Below, piece after piece: positions 41,929 through 50,540 of a stretch of 64,000 nt of DNA. The stretch lies in contig CALSQR010000001.1 of the NCBI GenBank assembly GCA_943788505.1, positions 186,001 to 250,000 on the forward strand, written 5' to 3'. Position numbers and translations under genes: made by a program. How positions within the stretch are numbered: the first letter of the stretch is position 1; every line of letters starts with the position of its first letter. The DNA comes from an uncultured bacterium (GTDB lineage Bacteria; Bacteroidota; Rhodothermia; Rhodothermales; UBA10348). The notes under the pieces were generated by a model that saw only the letters and a program-made list of their open reading frames with translations, did not search any database and was not told where the DNA came from.

Positions 41929-43578
41929 CTACAAGGGTAGATCGGTTGGATCTGCCTCGTGAAATGGATACCCAAAGTGATGCGGAGGATTGAAGTTTTC
42001 TTTGATCGTACGGGCAGATACCCATCTTACAAGATTCATATACGATCCAGCTTTGTCGTTCGTACCAGAAGCACGTGCGCCACCGAATGGTTGCTGTCCA
42101 ACTACGGCACCGCTCGGCTTATCGTTCAAGTAGAAGTTTCCTGCACTGTCCACCAGAGCGGCTGATGTAGAGGCCAACACAGACCGGTCCTGAGCGAAGA
42201 TGGCTCCCGTAAGTGCAAATGGAGACGTTCGGTTGAGCAGGTCAATCGTTTCATCGTAGCGGTCATCATCGTAAACGTGGATGGTCACTACCGGGCCGAA
42301 GATCTCTTCGCACATTGTCCGGTATAGTGGGTCCTCGGTTACAAGAACGGTTGGTTCGATGAAATAGCCGGTTTCATCCGAGTAGTTGCCACCAGCCAAG
42401 ACAGAAACGCCATCTGTTGCTTTGGCATGGTCGATGTAGGACGTGATATTGTCGAACGACTTTCTATCAATGACAGCATTGATAAAGTTCGTGAAGTCCT
42501 CGACAGGACCCATCTTGATTTCGTCCAACTGAGCAACGACTGAGTCACGAATGATTGGCCAAAGTGATTTCGGAACGTAGACTCTTGATGCGGCTGAACA
42601 TTTCTGACCCTGATACTCAAACCCGCCACGAACAATAGCGGTAGCCACAGGGATAGCATCGGCACTTGGATGCGCCATAATAAAGTCTTTGCCACCGGTC
42701 TCACCAACAACTCGCGGATAACCACGATAGGTGTTCATGTTGTTGCCGATCGTCGACCACATATGGTTGAACGTTCCAGTGGAGCCTGTGAAGTGGAGGC
42801 CTGCAAAGTGTTCCGATGCAAATACTGGATCACCAACCTCAGCACCATGGCCTGGAACCATGTTGATAACACCCTTAGGAAGCCCAGCTTCCTCGAACAT
42901 TTTGTACAGGTAGTACGCTGAATGCAACTGGGTAGATGACGGCTTCCAAAGCACCGTATTACCCATCAGTGCGGGTGCCGTCGGAAGGTTACCTGCAATA
43001 GATGTAAAGTTGAATGGCGTGACGGCGAAGACGAATCCTTCGAGCGGGCGGTACTGAACTCGGTTCCAAACACCAGGAGACGAAATGGGTTGGTCCTTGT
43101 AGATCTGCTCCATGTACCGGACGTTGAACCGCAGGAAGTCGATGAACTCACACGCAGCATCAATTTCTGCCTGATACGGGTTCTTGCTCTGGCCCAGCAT
43201 GGTAGACGCGTTGATAATGTCACGCCAAGGACCAGCTAGAAGCTCCGAGGCTTTCAAAAAGATTGCTGCACGATCTGTCCAGTGCATGTTCATCCAATCA
43301 TTCCTGGCAGCCACGGCCGACGAAATGGCTGCATTCAACTCAGGTGCAGCACACTGATGAGCTCTTCCGAGGACGCGTGCATGTTCATGCGGTGCAACGA
43401 TATCAATCAAGTCGCCTGTGCGGACTTCTTCGCCATTGATGAAGGCTGGGATATCGATGGTTTCTTCCCGCATCGTTTTCATCGTTTGACGCAAGGAAGC
43501 TCTTTCTGGAGATCCTGGTGCGTACGAGCGGACCGGTTCGTTGACCGGATCTGGAGTGCGAGAATAGGTGTTATTCAT
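41929..43578 (-). CDS. pruA: L-glutamate gamma-semialdehyde (1-pyrroline-5-carboxylate) dehydrogenase
   Basis: 549 residues from the ATG at 43578, where homologues begin (MNNTYSRTPDPVNEPV); upstream codons to 43662 are likely untranslated. Oxidises glutamate semialdehyde to glutamate with NAD. ALDH-fold motifs: VTPFNFTSIAGN, FTGSTGTF, GETGGKDF and the nucleophile in GQKCSAASRVY. Codon choice leans to C-ending codons, as in the giant gene next door, which suggests high expression (inference). Confidence 0.95.
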   Translation of the reverse strand: MNNTYSRTPDPVNEPVRSYAPGSPERASLRQTMKTMREETIDIPAFINGEEVRTGDLIDIVAPHEHARVLGRAHQCAAPELNAAISSAVAARNDWMNMHWTDRAAIFLKASELLAGPWRDIINASTMLGQSKNPYQAEIDAACEFIDFLRFNVRYMEQIYKDQPISSPGVWNRVQYRPLEGFVFAVTPFNFTSIAGNLPTAPALMGNTVLWKPSSTQLHSAYYLYKMFEEAGLPKGVINMVPGHGAEVGDPVFASEHFAGLHFTGSTGTFNHMWSTIGNNMNTYRGYPRVVGETGGKDFIMAHPSADAIPVATAIVRGGFEYQGQKCSAASRVYVPKSLWPIIRDSVVAQLDEIKMGPVEDFTNFINAVIDRKSFDNITSYIDHAKATDGVSVLAGGNYSDETGYFIEPTVLVTEDPLYRTMCEEIFGPVVTIHVYDDDRYDETIDLLNRTSPFALTGAIFAQDRSVLASTSAALVDSAGNFYLNDKPSGAVVGQQPFGGARASGTNDKAGSYMNLVRWVSARTIKENFNPPHHFGYPFHEADPTDLPL

Positions 43579-43961
43579 ATCGTAGTGAGCCTCGGAGACC
43601 GTTGGTTTTCTATCCATCCACGCAGAATATAAAACCCTGCGATTCCGGAATCTAAGGTCCATGGAAGGGCTCCCAAACCCGTTCTCGAAAAGTTCTAAGC
43701 CGGGTCGTATTCAAGCGAATGAAGGCACAATTTTCCGTGTAACAGGAAGGAAATCCCTTTTCAATCATCTTTTGTGATAACACCGCCAGCTCCAGTGATC
43801 CCTTCGGAATAGCGCTCTAAAGCAGCCTTGATGAGTCATAAAAGCACTATTGAGGCCAACAAATCATTTTTTGTGCTTCTGTAATCAAGGTGCGGCACGA
43901 AGATGGTTCTGTTGTGACTAGAACAAACTCCGAGACAACTCCCGGATTCCGGGCTATCACT
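43579..43961. other. Divergent spacer between pruA and the giant repeat gene
   Basis: 383 bases. No convincing gene; the frame upstream of 43962 is open to a GTG at 43890 but shows no protein-like features. A loose inverted repeat AAGCAC (43842-43847) and GTGCTT (43873-43878) lies in it. The promoters of both flanking genes must be here but no clear consensus was found. Confidence 0.4.
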
Positions 43962-46900
43962 ATGTTTTTCAAATCTGAACAGGCGAACGTCAGCGATGCC
44001 AGAGATGCAGTCAAGAAGCAATTGCTTCGATCACTCATCCAGCAGGTCGTAGACGAAATCAACTCCCACACCCTAGACGGTTTCTCAGAAATCGTTCGCT
44101 CCTTCATGGACGAAAATGATCTTGCAGGTATATCCTCTGAGCTCAAGTCTTCCATCACGAAGGAAATCCAGTCTCAGCTGTTTCCATCCGTTATGGATGA
44201 GATTATGCAAGAGGTTTCCCCAGACGCTCCAGCTATCGAAACGATGGTCAAGGAGAAGCTGGAAGAAATCGATATGAGCGGATTGCGGTCTGTCCTTATG
44301 GTCGGATTCAAACACAAGATTCAGGAAGACATCCTTCCCGAGATCATCAATGACGTTGCTTCAACCGCTACGAATACAGAGACTCCAGAGATGGAGGCGA
44401 TTGTTCGTGCTGGAGTAGATGGCATCGAAACCCAATCGATGATCGACACTTTGCGTGTTCGCATAGAGTCCACATTTCGCAAATCCGTCCTGCCAGACTT
44501 GGTGGATGAAATCGCGCGCGGCATCAACGGTCCAGACAGCAACGATCTAGAGGCATTGGTTCTCGCCGGTGTGAAGAAGGTCGAAACGCAATCCCTCGAG
44601 GACACTCTTCGTAGCGAGATTGAAACCACATTCAGGAGTATAGTGGTGCCAAGTCTCGTTGATGATATTTCAAAGGATGTTATCGCTGAGGATCAGGTTG
44701 ATATCGATTCCCTGATCAAAGCGAAGATGGATGATCTCGACCTTTCAGATTTTGCCGACAGAATTGCCGAAACTGCACAGAATCACCTTACGCTCACACT
44801 GCTTCCTGAGCTCGTCAATACGATCGCAACAGAAGTTAACGAGGTTCCTGTCCAGGAATACGAGAAGCGGATTCGCGATCTCGTGTCTTCGGCAGACTAC
44901 GAATCACTCTTGCAGCGACTGTCCGAAAAGGCAACCGAACTCTTTACTGAAAGAACGCTTTCCGAGATTACGGATGCATTGAACACTCCCGAGGCTGCTC
45001 TTGAGCAGAACATTCAGGAGATGGTTAATACGCGCCTAGAAGAATTCCTGCTTTCATCAGAATGGGCTGACGGTCTGCGTGAGGCTGAAGAACAGATCCG
45101 GTCTCGCGTGCAGAAAGCCGTAGAAGAGACTGCAGCCAGCGATGATGAGATGCTTTCCATTGTCAATGAACGCGTTTCAGATTCGATCACATCGAACGAT
45201 GAATTGCGTGCTCGCTTGGAAGCCTCAGCTACCGAGTCACTCGTGACCCGTCTAGCCGATACAATGGCGGCAGACCTGGCATCTTCCAACGACTTGATTT
45301 CTGCCACAGCAGCCGACCTCGAGCAACGTCGTGATCTTATGGATCAGATCATTGAGCAGGTTCGAGAACGGGTTCACGGTCAGATCGCATCTGAATCTAT
45401 TGAAGCCGTATCCAATATCGAGCAGACGTCAGACAGGGCGTTTGAACTTATCGATCCTGAGAACGAGATCCTCGTAGGAAACCGAGACGCCGTTCAGAAT
45501 AAACTCATTGAGGACATCGCCGATCGGGCGACGCGTTCGCTTGCCGACCTTGAGGAAGTGCGGGAACGCGCAGGAGTTTGGATCACAGAAGATCATCCAG
45601 CAGTCCGCGAAGCAGTAGCTGAAGTCGAGCAGTACATCCACGCACTCGTGCGTGAAGTAGCAGCTCGCCAAGCGGAAGACACACAAGCAGTCGTCGGGAA
45701 TGTCCTTCCTTCGTTTACTAAAGACACCGAGGCAATCCGAGCAGCTGTCAAGGAAACCAGAACTAAACTTATCGACCGTGTTGTCAGCTTTACGCTACGT
45801 GACATGGAAGACTCTTCTCAGGTAGCCGCTGATGCCAACAAACGAATTGCAGACGAGAACGAACGAATTCTCGACGCAGTTAGAGGCACTCTAGCCAAAC
45901 TTACAGAGCGCGTCTCAGAGCATGCTCTAGAACGCTTGAGTGCTTCTGATAAAGTTGCTAAGGATGCTTCTTCTCGTGTCCCAACTCAAAACGACGTGTT
46001 CCAGCGGGCAATTAAGGCCACGATGTCGCTTCTAATAGATGACATCGTCATCGAGGCAGGATCACGAATGAAGTCGGCTGAGAAGGTTTCGAGTGATGCT
46101 CGAGCACGAATGGATGCCATTCCAGCAGAAGTACGCCAGGCTTCGGGTGTTTTGGAAAACATGTTGCTTACCGAGGTAGCAGACATGACGAAGGAGCGCT
46201 TGTACGATGTGCAGTATGCTTCTGAAAAAGCCAGCACGTTCCTGCGTGCAACCAAGGAACTGGATGCGATCGAAGAAGCTGTCCGAATGAAGCTTTTCAA
46301 AGGCGTTGCGGACCAGGTTGTCAAAAGTATCGAGGACCCTGAAAAGGCAGGTGCCGAAGCTTTCTGGCAGGTTGATCAGCAACACGAGCACATCCTAGAT
46401 GCAATTGGAGAACTACGCAACCAGCTTCTGTTCACGATTGCTCGCGAGTCGATGTCCCAGCTGGGAGATCAGGAAAAAGTGGCTCAAGAATCCAGGACGT
46501 ACATCCCGGATACATCAAAACAAATCACAGGCGCTACGACACGTCTTTATGAGATCGTTGTCGAAGACATTGCTCGTCAGTCACTGAATCTACTTCGTGA
46601 TGCTGATGCAGTGGTTGAAGGGGCGGCATCTCACGTGGATGACCAGCATGAAGTGGTTCAGCGCATGCGCGGAATCGTCCAGCGTCACTTGATGGAAAGC
46701 CTTCTTGCTAATGCGCTAAATGACATTGGTCAGAATGTTGCTGGTACAGATGAAGCTGGAGAGCGTGCATTTTTCAAGCAAGCTATTCGCGACATCCAAT
46801 CAACGCGGACACAACCTAGCAATGAAGACCCGAACCAGCTAGACTCACAGCCTTTTGAAGGGCCGACTGTAACTACAGAAGACACTGAGTCTTCAGAAAC

Positions 46901-47918
46901 ATGGTCGAAGCTATCAGATATTGATCCATCCACTCCAGGAGGTACCCCCTCTAGTGACGAGTCTTTACTGACCGAATCAGTTTCGGCTGACCCTAGCCAA
47001 ACAGAAGTATCTACTGACTCGGGTGCCCGTAAATCATGGACTGTCAATGAGTTTCGTCCAACGGATCGAGATCCTTTGTCAGGCGCAGTTTCAGGTGATG
47101 GTGCTCGAACAAGAGCCCCAAAGTTTCCAAAACCAGGGATAAATACTACGACGCTTTATGTTTATGGCGTAATCAGTACTGAAGCAGCCGATTCTGAATC
47201 CTTTTATGGTATTGAAGGAATCCATGCAGACTCTGAAGTGAAATTACTTGCCTGTGGTTCTTTGACGGCCCTTGTCAGCCCGATAGGAAACCAGAAGTTT
47301 TCTCCCAAGGTCATCCGCGAATCGATGAAGGACACGGACTGGTTGAAAAGCCATGTACGTCGTCATGCAGATGTTCTGGCTGAGGCTCAAGCCGTGCAGA
47401 CCGTAATACCAATGCGCTTCGGTTGCGTGTTTTCAAATCCGCGCGAGATCATGCAATTCATAGACTCCAGAAAGGATGCTCTACAAGAGGCGCTTGTTCG
47501 ACTGCACAACCGCTCCGAATTCAGCGTCAGTGTCCGCATTGACGGATCATCGGTGAATACGGTGCCCAACGATCTTGAAGGCGTGCCAAGTGGCGTCGCT
47601 GACTTTCTGCGAGCCGCCGCCGGTGAGAAACCAGCAGCAGCAGAATTAGAAGCAACAGCTACAAAGATTCATGCTCACCTAGCGAGATATGCAGGGGAGA
47701 GTATGCGGAATCCGAATACGGAAGCTGAAATGCTACTCAATGCAACGCATCTAGTCACAATAGCATCCGAGGAAGAATTCAAGCATGCTGTTAAAACCTT
47801 ATCTGCGGAATATGATGCCCAAGGCATTAGAATCGAGGTAAGTGGCCCCTGGCCTCCGTATCACTTCGTCGATATTGATTTCGACGGCGATGCAGGCAGG
47901 GAAAAGATTCCCGTCTAG
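43962..47918 (+). CDS. Giant repeat protein with C-terminal GvpL/GvpF gas-vesicle domain
   Basis: 1318 residues from the ATG at 43962 (GTG at 43890 possible). No signal peptide or membrane helix, so cytoplasmic. Residues 45-354 are six repeats of 51-52 residues, 355-447 a related helical region, 448-931 eleven repeats of 43-45 residues, 932-1061 an acidic Ser/Thr/Pro linker, and 1062-1318 a GvpL/GvpF domain: TLYVYGVI, GSLTALVSPI, DTDWLKSHVRRHADVL, TVIPMRFGCVF, ALQEALVRL, and SGPWPPYHFVDI. GvpF/L are accessory proteins in gas-vesicle assembly, some binding GvpA. No gvpA or other gvp gene is in the window. A filament or scaffold carrying a Gvp-like head is my inference; role unknown. Confidence 0.9.
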   Translation: MFFKSEQANVSDARDAVKKQLLRSLIQQVVDEINSHTLDGFSEIVRSFMDENDLAGISSELKSSITKEIQSQLFPSVMDEIMQEVSPDAPAIETMVKEKLEEIDMSGLRSVLMVGFKHKIQEDILPEIINDVASTATNTETPEMEAIVRAGVDGIETQSMIDTLRVRIESTFRKSVLPDLVDEIARGINGPDSNDLEALVLAGVKKVETQSLEDTLRSEIETTFRSIVVPSLVDDISKDVIAEDQVDIDSLIKAKMDDLDLSDFADRIAETAQNHLTLTLLPELVNTIATEVNEVPVQEYEKRIRDLVSSADYESLLQRLSEKATELFTERTLSEITDALNTPEAALEQNIQEMVNTRLEEFLLSSEWADGLREAEEQIRSRVQKAVEETAASDDEMLSIVNERVSDSITSNDELRARLEASATESLVTRLADTMAADLASSNDLISATAADLEQRRDLMDQIIEQVRERVHGQIASESIEAVSNIEQTSDRAFELIDPENEILVGNRDAVQNKLIEDIADRATRSLADLEEVRERAGVWITEDHPAVREAVAEVEQYIHALVREVAARQAEDTQAVVGNVLPSFTKDTEAIRAAVKETRTKLIDRVVSFTLRDMEDSSQVAADANKRIADENERILDAVRGTLAKLTERVSEHALERLSASDKVAKDASSRVPTQNDVFQRAIKATMSLLIDDIVIEAGSRMKSAEKVSSDARARMDAIPAEVRQASGVLENMLLTEVADMTKERLYDVQYASEKASTFLRATKELDAIEEAVRMKLFKGVADQVVKSIEDPEKAGAEAFWQVDQQHEHILDAIGELRNQLLFTIARESMSQLGDQEKVAQESRTYIPDTSKQITGATTRLYEIVVEDIARQSLNLLRDADAVVEGAASHVDDQHEVVQRMRGIVQRHLMESLLANALNDIGQNVAGTDEAGERAFFKQAIRDIQSTRTQPSNEDPNQLDSQPFEGPTVTTEDTESSETWSKLSDIDPSTPGGTPSSDESLLTESVSADPSQTEVSTDSGARKSWTVNEFRPTDRDPLSGAVSGDGARTRAPKFPKPGINTTTLYVYGVISTEAADSESFYGIEGIHADSEVKLLACGSLTALVSPIGNQKFSPKVIRESMKDTDWLKSHVRRHADVLAEAQAVQTVIPMRFGCVFSNPREIMQFIDSRKDALQEALVRLHNRSEFSVSVRIDGSSVNTVPNDLEGVPSGVADFLRAAAGEKPAAAELEATATKIHAHLARYAGESMRNPNTEAEMLLNATHLVTIASEEEFKHAVKTLSAEYDAQGIRIEVSGPWPPYHFVDIDFDGDAGREKIPV
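44094..45023 (+). repeat. Six tandem 51-52-residue protein repeats
   Basis: Units at residues 45-95, 96-147, 148-199, 200-251, 252-303 and 304-354. Five units carry a Pro (or Ser in the sixth) at position 29-31 followed by a hydrophobic pair, and most end in acidic-rich turn segments. Example of similarity: units 3 and 4 share AGV at positions 3-5, ETQS at 9-12 and DTLR at 15-18. DNA-level identity is modest, so the array is old. Confidence 0.85.
45303..46754 (+). repeat. Eleven tandem 43-45-residue protein repeats
   Basis: Units begin at residues 448, 492, 536, 580, 625, 669, 713, 757, 800, 844 and 888; lengths are 44 except 45 (fourth) and 43 (eighth). Most open with A/S-rich residues, have a hydrophobic pattern (about I-x-x-A/V-x-x-x-L) at 12-24 and close with D/E-K/V-A. 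The near-constant length implies a regular helical solenoid or stacked coiled coil. Confidence 0.85.
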
Positions 47919-47950
47919 ATTCCGAAGGAATTGAAACGGGGTTTGTTCAG

Positions 47951-47962
47951 CGCGGGCCCGCG
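47951..47962. repeat. Perfect 12-bp GC palindrome
   Basis: CGCGGGCCCGCG, 33 bases after the stop of the giant gene. It is GC-rich against its surroundings. No T tract follows, so it is not an obvious terminator. Confidence 0.4.
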
Positions 47963-48002
47963 TGTCGTTTTCAGGATCCTGCGAGGGGGCCAAGCGTCAC
48001 AC

Positions 48003-48128: not shown

Positions 48129-49388
48129 GTGTCATTTAACGTCGAATCCTTCATAGCAAGACGGTATCTGCGTGGTGCAGAAGGGAAGAGTGAAGGTCGC
48201 CGTTTTTTGCGGTTGATTACATGGATATCGATTGGTGGTGTTGCAGTCGGGGTAGCAGCACTTATTCTAGCGCTTTCTATCGTCCGAGGATTCAGTGGTG
48301 AGATTACCGACAAGGTCATTGGTTTTGCCTCCCACGTTCAGGTTCAAAGTATTCGAGATGAGCCTTTGCAAGGCGCTGCGATGCTCTCCAATATTCTTGG
48401 TAATGAATCGATTGTCTCGACAGCGATGCCCATCATTCAGGAATTTGTGCTTATCCGTCGAAGCTCAAATGACATCGACGGGGTTTCCTTACAAGGTGTT
48501 GGTAGCCTGCCGGATTACATTTCGTCGTCTTTACTACAAGGAACAGGCCTTCTTGAACCTCAAAATGGTACGTCTGCTTCTAGTGTATCAGGCCCCGGCA
48601 TTGTGATCGGAGCTACGCTCGCACGACAATTGGGAGCCGAAATTGGAGAGCATTTGACAGCATTCTCCATTCAAGGTGGCCCTGGATCAGGAGCTAGAGG
48701 AGCCCCTCGCGTCAAGCAATTTGTCCTAACAGGCATCTTTGAAACATCTCTAGCCAACTTTGATGAGCTTTACGTGTTTGTCGGCTTGTCTGAGGCCCGC
48801 TCTTTGTTGGAGTACGGTCCTGATGAAATAACCCGGTTTGATGTACGAGTCAATGGCGGGGTAGATTATACGGAAGCCGCAGACCTTCTTGACTCTCGTC
48901 TGGACTTTCCCGCCATAGCGCGACCAGTCACAGATATTTACCGGAGTTTGTTTGCTTGGGTATCTCTGCAACAGAGTATTATTCCCATGATCATTTCCAT
49001 TATTGTATTCGTGGCAGCAGTTAATGTGATTGGAACCTTGCTCATGATCATCTTGGAAAAGAATCGAGAGATGGGCATTCTGGCTAGTATGGGTGCCACG
49101 GCCGCTATGAGGCAGCGCATATTTGTGAGATTAGGTCTGCTAATCGGAGCTAGTGGGGTTGTTATTGGAGAAGTGATAGCTCTAGTATTCGCCTTATTAC
49201 AAATGCGCTTTGGTATCATCCCTCTTCCTGCCGAGGCCTACTACATGAATACCGCGCCAATCGATCTGAATCCCGTTGATTTCATTGTTGTGGCAGCTAT
49301 AACCTTGGTGCTCTGTACCGCGTCGTCATGGATCCCCGCCCGACATGCCGCCAAAGTCTTACCTATTCATGCCATCCGAACTAGATAA
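48129..49388 (+). CDS. FtsX/LolC-type ABC transporter permease
   Basis: 419 residues from a GTG at 48129. The frame is open to 47931, but homology begins at FNVESFIARRYLRG, the usual N-terminus of LolC/E-like permeases. First membrane helix about 30-55 (ISIGGVAVGVAALILALSIVRGFSGEI), a periplasmic MacB-like domain (about 60-270), then three C-terminal helices (MIISIIVFVAAVNVIGTLLMIILEKNREMGILASMGAT and later). The ILEKNREMGILASMGA block is the contact to the ATPase. Lipoprotein release is the best guess. No ATPase gene is adjacent. Confidence 0.85.
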   Translation: MSFNVESFIARRYLRGAEGKSEGRRFLRLITWISIGGVAVGVAALILALSIVRGFSGEITDKVIGFASHVQVQSIRDEPLQGAAMLSNILGNESIVSTAMPIIQEFVLIRRSSNDIDGVSLQGVGSLPDYISSSLLQGTGLLEPQNGTSASSVSGPGIVIGATLARQLGAEIGEHLTAFSIQGGPGSGARGAPRVKQFVLTGIFETSLANFDELYVFVGLSEARSLLEYGPDEITRFDVRVNGGVDYTEAADLLDSRLDFPAIARPVTDIYRSLFAWVSLQQSIIPMIISIIVFVAAVNVIGTLLMIILEKNREMGILASMGATAAMRQRIFVRLGLLIGASGVVIGEVIALVFALLQMRFGIIPLPAEAYYMNTAPIDLNPVDFIVVAAITLVLCTASSWIPARHAAKVLPIHAIRTR

Positions 49389-49399
49389 TTCCATGCAGT

Positions 49400-49864
49400 A
49401 TGAACGTTGGCGATAAAGCTCCAGATTTCACATTATACTCTGAAGAGAAGCAACCCGTAAATCTCCACGAAACATTAAAAAACGGTCCAGTTCTACTCCT
49501 TTTTTTCCCTGCTGCCTTCACAGGAACGTGCACTACAGAATTACACGAAGTGACTAATAATTTAGGGGCGTACTCGCCAGCCCAAGTGTTCGGAGTTTCA
49601 ACAGATACGATCTTTTCTTTAGCTGAATACTCCAAAAGCAACGGATTCAAGGTGTCTTTGTTGAGCGATCATAATGCAGAGGTCGCTGAGGCGTTTGATT
49701 GTAAGTTCGATCATAATTTTGGTCCTATGAAGTACGATCGTATTGCCCGTCGAGGATCCTTTTTGATAGATACAGATGGCATCGTTCAGTACGCTGAGGT
49801 TTTGGACAATCCAGGTAATCTTCCCGATCTGGCGGGCATAATAGACACGATCGCTTCATTGTAA
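49400..49864 (+). CDS. Peroxiredoxin (AhpC/TSA, AhpE/Bcp-like)
   Basis: 154 residues. Thioredoxin-fold peroxidase with peroxidatic Cys44 in FPAAFTGTCTTEL; the motif P-x-x-x-T-x-x-C is intact. Other Cys is at about 101 (FDCKFD), not in the usual Bcp resolving place, so a one-Cys AhpE-like mechanism is possible. KYDRIARRGSFLIDTDG is the conserved C-terminal strand pair. moaD starts on the stop codon (TAATG). Confidence 0.88.
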   Translation: MNVGDKAPDFTLYSEEKQPVNLHETLKNGPVLLLFFPAAFTGTCTTELHEVTNNLGAYSPAQVFGVSTDTIFSLAEYSKSNGFKVSLLSDHNAEVAEAFDCKFDHNFGPMKYDRIARRGSFLIDTDGIVQYAEVLDNPGNLPDLAGIIDTIASL

Positions 49865-50109
49865 TGACTATTTCTGTCCGCGTATTTGCCATGCTCAGGG
49901 AGGCTTTGGGAGCTTCAATGATTCATGTTGAGGTGCCAGAAAACTGTTCAACGCGCATGTTGGTGGACCTTCTAGTCAAAGCTTTTCCCTCTATAGAACC
50001 TGTTCATAACGTGATTAGGGTTGCAGTAAATGACGAATGGGCAAGCTGGGACACCTTGATCGCAGCCGGAGACGACGTGGCTCTACTTACACCTGTTTCC
50101 GGCGGATGA
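49864..50109 (+). CDS. moaD: Molybdopterin synthase small subunit MoaD
   Basis: 81 residues with a beta-grasp fold ending in the obligatory Gly-Gly (TPVSGG), the site that becomes a thiocarboxylate and donates sulfur to precursor Z. LLREALG-like start (FAMLREALGA) and VNDEWASWDTLIAAGDDVALL are typical. Overlaps the peroxiredoxin stop by one base and moaE by four. Confidence 0.93.
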   Translation: MTISVRVFAMLREALGASMIHVEVPENCSTRMLVDLLVKAFPSIEPVHNVIRVAVNDEWASWDTLIAAGDDVALLTPVSGG

Positions 50110-50540
50110 CGTATTTCTGGATTGACATATCGGCAGAGCCCATATCTCCTGATAAGGTTTGGTCCTACCTAGCAGCTTCTGAGGGAGGAGGCATAAATAT
50201 ATTCGTGGGAGCTACCAGGCGCCTAACCCAAGGGCGTGTGACAGTGCGGCTTGCTTACGAAGCCCACGAATCAATGGCGCTGAAGGAGATGGCTTCATTG
50301 GCAGAATCAGCGGCAAGTAAATGGGATGTTCTTCGCATCGCGATTCTTCATCGAACTGGCGAAGTATCAGTCTCTGAGCCGAGTGTCATTATCGGAGTGG
50401 CCTCGTCCCACAGGGCGGAGGCTTTTGCCGCCAGCAGGTTTCTGATAGATGAGCTGAAGATTAGCGTTCCAATCTGGAAAAAGGAGATATACGAAGACGG
50501 GGAAACGCAGTGGAAAGACGCAAAATGGGAGCGTCCTTAA
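50106..50540 (+). CDS. moaE: Molybdopterin synthase catalytic subunit MoaE
   Basis: 144 residues from the ATG at 50106, overlapping moaD as ATGA. Binds MoaD's C-terminus and converts precursor Z to molybdopterin. Motifs: INIFVGATRR, YEAHESMALKEM, ILHRTGEVSVSE, SSHRAEAFAASRFLIDELK and VPIWKKE with the catalytic Lys pair. Ends convergent with purC. Implies molybdoenzymes elsewhere in the genome. Confidence 0.94.
   Translation: MTYFWIDISAEPISPDKVWSYLAASEGGGINIFVGATRRLTQGRVTVRLAYEAHESMALKEMASLAESAASKWDVLRIAILHRTGEVSVSEPSVIIGVASSHRAEAFAASRFLIDELKISVPIWKKEIYEDGETQWKDAKWERP

Follow-up and report, generated by a model that had tools for sequence, protein, structure and literature searches.

GvpL and GvpF are assembly proteins of gas vesicles; what is understood of their biochemistry comes mainly from interaction screens, in which they have many partners. 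GvpL interacts with each of the other accessory Gvps, and GvpF with GvpA (PMC7688916). GvpF needs no more than the first helix (alpha-1) of GvpA for binding and has been proposed to act as a chaperone of GvpA (PMC11445434). The gene described here encodes a protein in which a domain of this family is fused to a long helical rod. It was found in a 64,000-nucleotide stretch of DNA, referred to as the window, from an uncultured bacterium of the order Rhodothermales (Bacteroidota; GenBank assembly GCA_943788505.1, contig CALSQR010000001.1, positions 186,001 to 250,000). The gene occupies positions 43962-47918 of the forward strand and is present in a single copy in its genome. An uninterrupted reading frame from the ATG at 43962 gives a protein of 1318 residues that is predicted to be internal (cytoplasmic). 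This start agrees with homologues beginning MFFK..Q.NVSDARDAVKKQLLR, and an in-frame GTG further upstream, at 43890, has no support among the homologues. The protein is very probably the rod form of a GvpL/F-domain family that is inherited within Rhodothermales and occurs where gas-vesicle shell genes are missing.

The C-terminal domain spans residues 1065-1304 (47154-47873, + strand). An earlier sequence-only reading, made without database searches, had described a 1318-residue repeat protein ending in a GvpL/F domain, and both profile and structure comparison now bear this out. The Pfam profile PF06386 (GvpL_GvpF) scores 160.8 bits on the domain, its cut-off being 23.6 (E 7.7e-47); it has no other match in the 2.75-Mb genome, and it matched all 21 long-form members tested. 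A profile of the domain built from 14 relatives retrieves solved GvpF proteins by sequence, namely 6l5d from Anabaena (3.2e-19) and 4qsg from Microcystis (1.3e-16). In an AlphaFold2 model of residues 583-1318, the predicted local distance difference test score (pLDDT) is about 80-90 across most of the domain. A Foldseek search with this model returned the same two GvpF crystal structures at the top (E 4.2e-12 for 6l5d and 2.5e-10 for 4qsg), with template modelling scores by target length of 0.74 and 0.72, respectively. The canonical GvpL/F signature motifs are kept in the protein and its relatives, so that full-domain profile match, predicted fold and motifs are all like those of the gas-vesicle assembly family. 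The NCBIfam equivalogs are nevertheless missed by far, with 46 of 200 bits for GvpL (NF045778) and 36.2 of 350 bits for cyanobacterial GvpF (NF052351). Judged by these profiles, the domain is of GvpL/F type but is none of the curated gas-vesicle proteins. It also differs from the GvpL/GvpF assembly proteins in its fusion to a long helical rod, in its position in a clade of its own, and in belonging to a genome that lacks GvpA/J/M and GvpK.

The occurrence of shell genes was examined by profile searches for PF06386, PF00741 (GvpA/J/M) and PF05121 (GvpK) in 100 Rhodothermales genomes. Neither PF00741 nor PF05121 is matched in the genome of the 1318-residue protein or in any rod-form relative of this sample, PF00741 being a short model that a strongly diverged shell protein could escape. 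PF06386 is present in 41 of the 100 genomes, 39 of which lack GvpA. Matches to PF00741 and PF05121 are confined to the same two genomes, G063 and G095, which act as positive controls (G, C, L and f numbers are handles for genomes, contigs, loci and families). Both carry ordinary gvp clusters (G063, C1:593703-599171; G095, C40:20547-24231) with GvpL/F proteins of about 250-280 residues, and a functional gas-vesicle set of GvpA/GvpB, GvpK and clustered PF06386 copies is found in these two only and not in the genome of the window. In the phylum sample, PF06386 occurs in 36 genomes that do not belong to Rhodothermales, and 30 of these also have PF00741. Since 39 of 41 genomes lack a shell protein in one group and 30 of 36 have it in the other, a GvpL/F protein in Rhodothermales normally comes without GvpA, an unusual situation in the rest of the phylum. 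The proposal of the sequence-only reading that the protein recruits a Gvp-like shell finds no support in the genome-wide search for gvpA or in the rod-form relatives. Its other proposal, that the GvpF fold has been put to a new use, is the reading with the best support. The clusters of G063 and G095 each contain three GvpA/J/M matches, GvpK and several GvpL/F genes, and their GvpL/F proteins lie on long branches in the domain tree.

Proteins combining a long rod with a C-terminal GvpL/F domain occur in at least 22 genomes, all of one order, and range from 681 to 1917 residues. Wherever testable, they lie at one shared locus beside a LolC/E-type permease gene, and their domains form one clade with support 88/95. 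Relatives were recovered by domain alignment; a search of the genome contigs for peptide patterns of the whole protein found no close relatives, and a plasmid search gave no match. Between species of the genus, nonsynonymous divergence (dN) of the GvpL/F domain is about 0.32-0.36 and synonymous divergence (dS) is saturated. With the signature kept as well, these values indicate that the domain is not decaying. Change and loss are also seen: one of the 22 genomes (G026) has a partly broken domain with an internal stop, G027 has a rod with a partial domain beside LolC/E, G006 retains only a 259-residue open piece at the locus, and G012 and G018 have the same neighbours with no rod gene between them. 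Such losses and truncations mean that the gene is dispensable in some lineages and that neither rod nor domain is strictly universal. Lineages that keep a constrained domain without a recognisable shell protein provide a test of the activity of the domain itself. Descriptions of rod-fused or gvpA-free GvpL/F proteins were not found in the open-access literature, most subscription papers being outside this coverage. With relatives across the order sharing the protein, the domain apparently has taken on a new role, as a scaffold or adaptor.

Rhodothermales also contain short GvpL/F proteins (f3, f7 and f8, sister lineages taken to be of Rhodothermus type) of about 300-460 residues, with a longer open frame in f7. 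Like the rod form they have no GvpA, a single GvpL/F domain, and an N-terminal helix that leads into a linker; unlike it they have no 44-residue repeats and are encoded at a different locus. Where the sequence reaches far enough, a LysM/transglycosylase gene lies upstream of them. The two forms were not seen together in any genome of the sample. One or two small genes lie directly upstream of the short GvpL/F gene and encode an N-terminal helix, EARxEALAxAKxxLKExMLQAIL; a profile of this helix also recognises the N-terminal end of the short GvpL/F protein itself (E 1.7e-12, G052). The sharing of this helix points to its being an interaction module. The members of the small genes that were tested match no NCBIfam or Pfam family. 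Two consecutive genes of this type stand just upstream of the short GvpL/F gene at L069, L070 and L182 (G054, G033 and G032, respectively). Another conserved gene near the short form, c16, was considered as a partner and rejected; it is widespread (83 of 100 genomes) and unlinked to the domain. A cultivable organism of Rhodothermus type would allow work on the short form.

The remainder of the 1318-residue protein comprises, all on the + strand, an N-terminal helix (residues 13-33, ARDAVKKQLLRSLIQQVVDEI; 43998-44060) recognised from the conservation among relatives, a rod of about 890 residues (35-925) and a linker (residues 926-1060; 46737-47141) that is rich in P, G, D and E and predicted to lack structure. 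The rod is predicted to be nearly all helical, and the models are undecided between single long helices and helical hairpins. Its N half (residues 35-460; 44064-45341) consists of degenerate 52-residue helical repeats, as indicated by model, periodicity and identity, and its C half (residues 463-901; 45348-46664) of 44-residue helical repeats identified by repeat profile and periodicity. Autocorrelation compared with shuffled sequences peaks at 44 residues in the C half (z = 11.5) and at 52 residues in the N half (z = 9.4), which shows that the repeats noticed in the sequence-only reading are more than chance. A sharp 3.66-residue period in hydrophobicity runs through the whole rod. The 44-residue unit, AxxxLRxxLLxEIAxRAxxxLxDxExxAxxARxxI followed by a D/P/H-rich loop, is enriched in P, G, D and N at positions 22-25 and 36-40, which suggests two helices in each unit. 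The profile finds nine of these units in the 1318-residue protein and between 2 (G044) and 22 (G014) among its relatives.

Helical repeats are also a feature of GvpC, a repetitive protein on the exterior of gas vesicles that has repeats of about 33 residues and binds a GvpA shell. The likeness is one of description and no homology is claimed; the repeats of the rod are of 44 and 52 residues, and the GvpA shell is absent. Generic helical-repeat or coiled-coil cytoskeletal proteins likewise have a long cytoplasmic helical region with a length that varies between species, but the rod repeats match no Pfam family consistently across 21 members and the 44-residue unit has no relative among PDB sequences. 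Among PDB sequences the N half gave only marginal matches (E 0.008), to tetratricopeptide repeat protein 21B. IMD, DUF445 and DeaD_dimer were rejected as rod families, their weak Pfam matches being below the cut-off or limited to one member.

If the GvpL/F domain on the rod retains the activity published for GvpF, binding to the first GvpA helix, it would catch amphipathic helices. In a mechanism built on this condition, the conserved N-terminal amphipathic helix would dock or oligomerise, the variable number of helical repeats would set reach and valence, and the GvpL/F domain on its flexible linker would capture short amphipathic helices of partners or of the rod itself. Through multivalent binding, a filament, cluster or tether could then form within the cell; the repeat periodicity is compatible with ordered self-assembly. 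This mechanism of a helix-binding scaffold is put forward tentatively, and the broader account, a GvpL/F family independent of gas vesicles that serves as a cytoplasmic scaffold or adaptor, is regarded as plausible, if somewhat short of probable. A more specific version, a Rhodothermales filament or tether system in which GvpL/F domains act as connectors that grab the rod or N-terminal helices of their neighbours and rod length is tuned by species, is rather unlikely. A helix-binding connector, if real, would help to explain the role of the domain with GvpA and would be an organelle assembly factor reused in a cellular scaffold.

Several observations weigh against helix binding and a scaffold. 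The rod-form N-terminal helix, AKxALKxxLLxxxMQQAxxEL, resembles the helix of the small genes, but the similarity is suggestive only (hhalign probability 17%, not significant), and neither motif resembles GvpA. The models of the rod are of low confidence (pLDDT about 50), a rod without GvpL/F in G003 and G004 means that the domain is not always needed, and the gene neighbours hint at no function beyond position. The filament or scaffold of the sequence-only reading stays a plausible inference, the rod models being of low confidence.

The alternative that survives best reverses the roles: the rod would do the work, as a spacer, ruler or cytoskeletal element, and GvpL/F would be an end cap that can be dispensed with. 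It accords with G003 and G004, two genomes of the same genus in which the protein retains its rod, its linker and, as a conserved tail, W(R)(V/I)NEFRPED, and stops exactly at the point where GvpL/F would begin, with no room for the domain before LolC/E; their rod frames (L158:3-2426 and L159:3-1541, respectively) are cut on the N-terminal side by the contig end. Further points in its favour are the wide variation in repeat number and the N-terminal helix, residues 1-34 showing the highest conservation anywhere in the protein (88-91% identity within the genus). In the same comparison, however, the GvpL/F domain (60-62%) is conserved to the same degree as the C half of the rod (58-60%), with the linker at 41% and the N half, the least conserved part, at 25-36%. 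Across the order, moreover, the domain is the more constant element: the short forms are rodless, f6 members have only 2-3 units of the 44-residue repeat, and the two f13 proteins (G091, at a locus beside LolC/E, and G097, on a short contig) keep a C-terminal GvpL/F-type domain and an acidic linker with almost no rod. This reversal of roles is unlikely.

The surroundings of the gene are as the sequence-only reading described them (amino-acid catabolism, an ABC permease and moaD-moaE, away from gvp genes), with a peroxiredoxin gene that it had missed. Downstream lie the LolC/E-type permease (48129-49388, + strand; profile and relatives' loci), the peroxiredoxin, ThiS/MoaD and MoaE; an aldehyde dehydrogenase (41929-43662, - strand; Pfam and relatives' loci) and a 2,4-diaminopentanoate dehydrogenase lie on the opposite side. 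In every one of the 22 genomes of the locus cluster (f1, f2, f6 and f11) LolC/E comes after the rod gene, which in most of them is divergent from the aldehyde dehydrogenase gene. This constancy could argue for a role in the envelope, for example with the adjacent lipoprotein-release permease. LolC/E, however, is found in 98 of the 100 genomes irrespective of the rod gene, and mostly without it, so it was treated as context and rejected as a specific partner. About 210 bases and a terminator-like hairpin (47950-47963, + strand), directly 3' of the rod gene, also intervene; the hairpin is a consensus match only, and such sites in the region do not exceed chance in number by consensus matching. 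The other genes of the locus are conserved too and may reflect old gene order only, which is also how the LolC/E linkage is best read. An envelope role is accordingly improbable.

Nucleation of a shell or gas vesicle from an unrecognised, diverged GvpA-like protein would accord with the retention of the canonical GvpL/F signature, and the shortness of the PF00741 model leaves room for such a protein. The silence of PF00741 and PF05121 in the rod-form genomes, alongside positive results in two relatives, and the lack of any gvp gene among the neighbours make this quite improbable. That the gene is a functionless, drifting remnant of a lost gas-vesicle cluster, as its absence or truncation in G012, G018, G003, G004 and G006 might suggest, is extremely improbable and was rejected on grounds of conservation (open frames of 680-1917 residues in at least four families, ordered repeats, conserved signature, saturated dS), order-wide inheritance and a locus unrelated to gvp genes.

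Other families of the phylum include genomes that lack PF00741 and encode divergent GvpL/F-like proteins of 411-564 residues (L184-L188; G110, G325, G257, G400 and G148), which have a helical-looking N-terminal segment, a linker and a C-terminal GvpL/F-like domain, and unrelated neighbours. The orphan GvpL/F plan may extend beyond Rhodothermales. In the window, the ThiS/MoaD-like and MoaE open reading frames overlap (49864-50540), and the MoaE gene probably starts later than its longest open reading frame.

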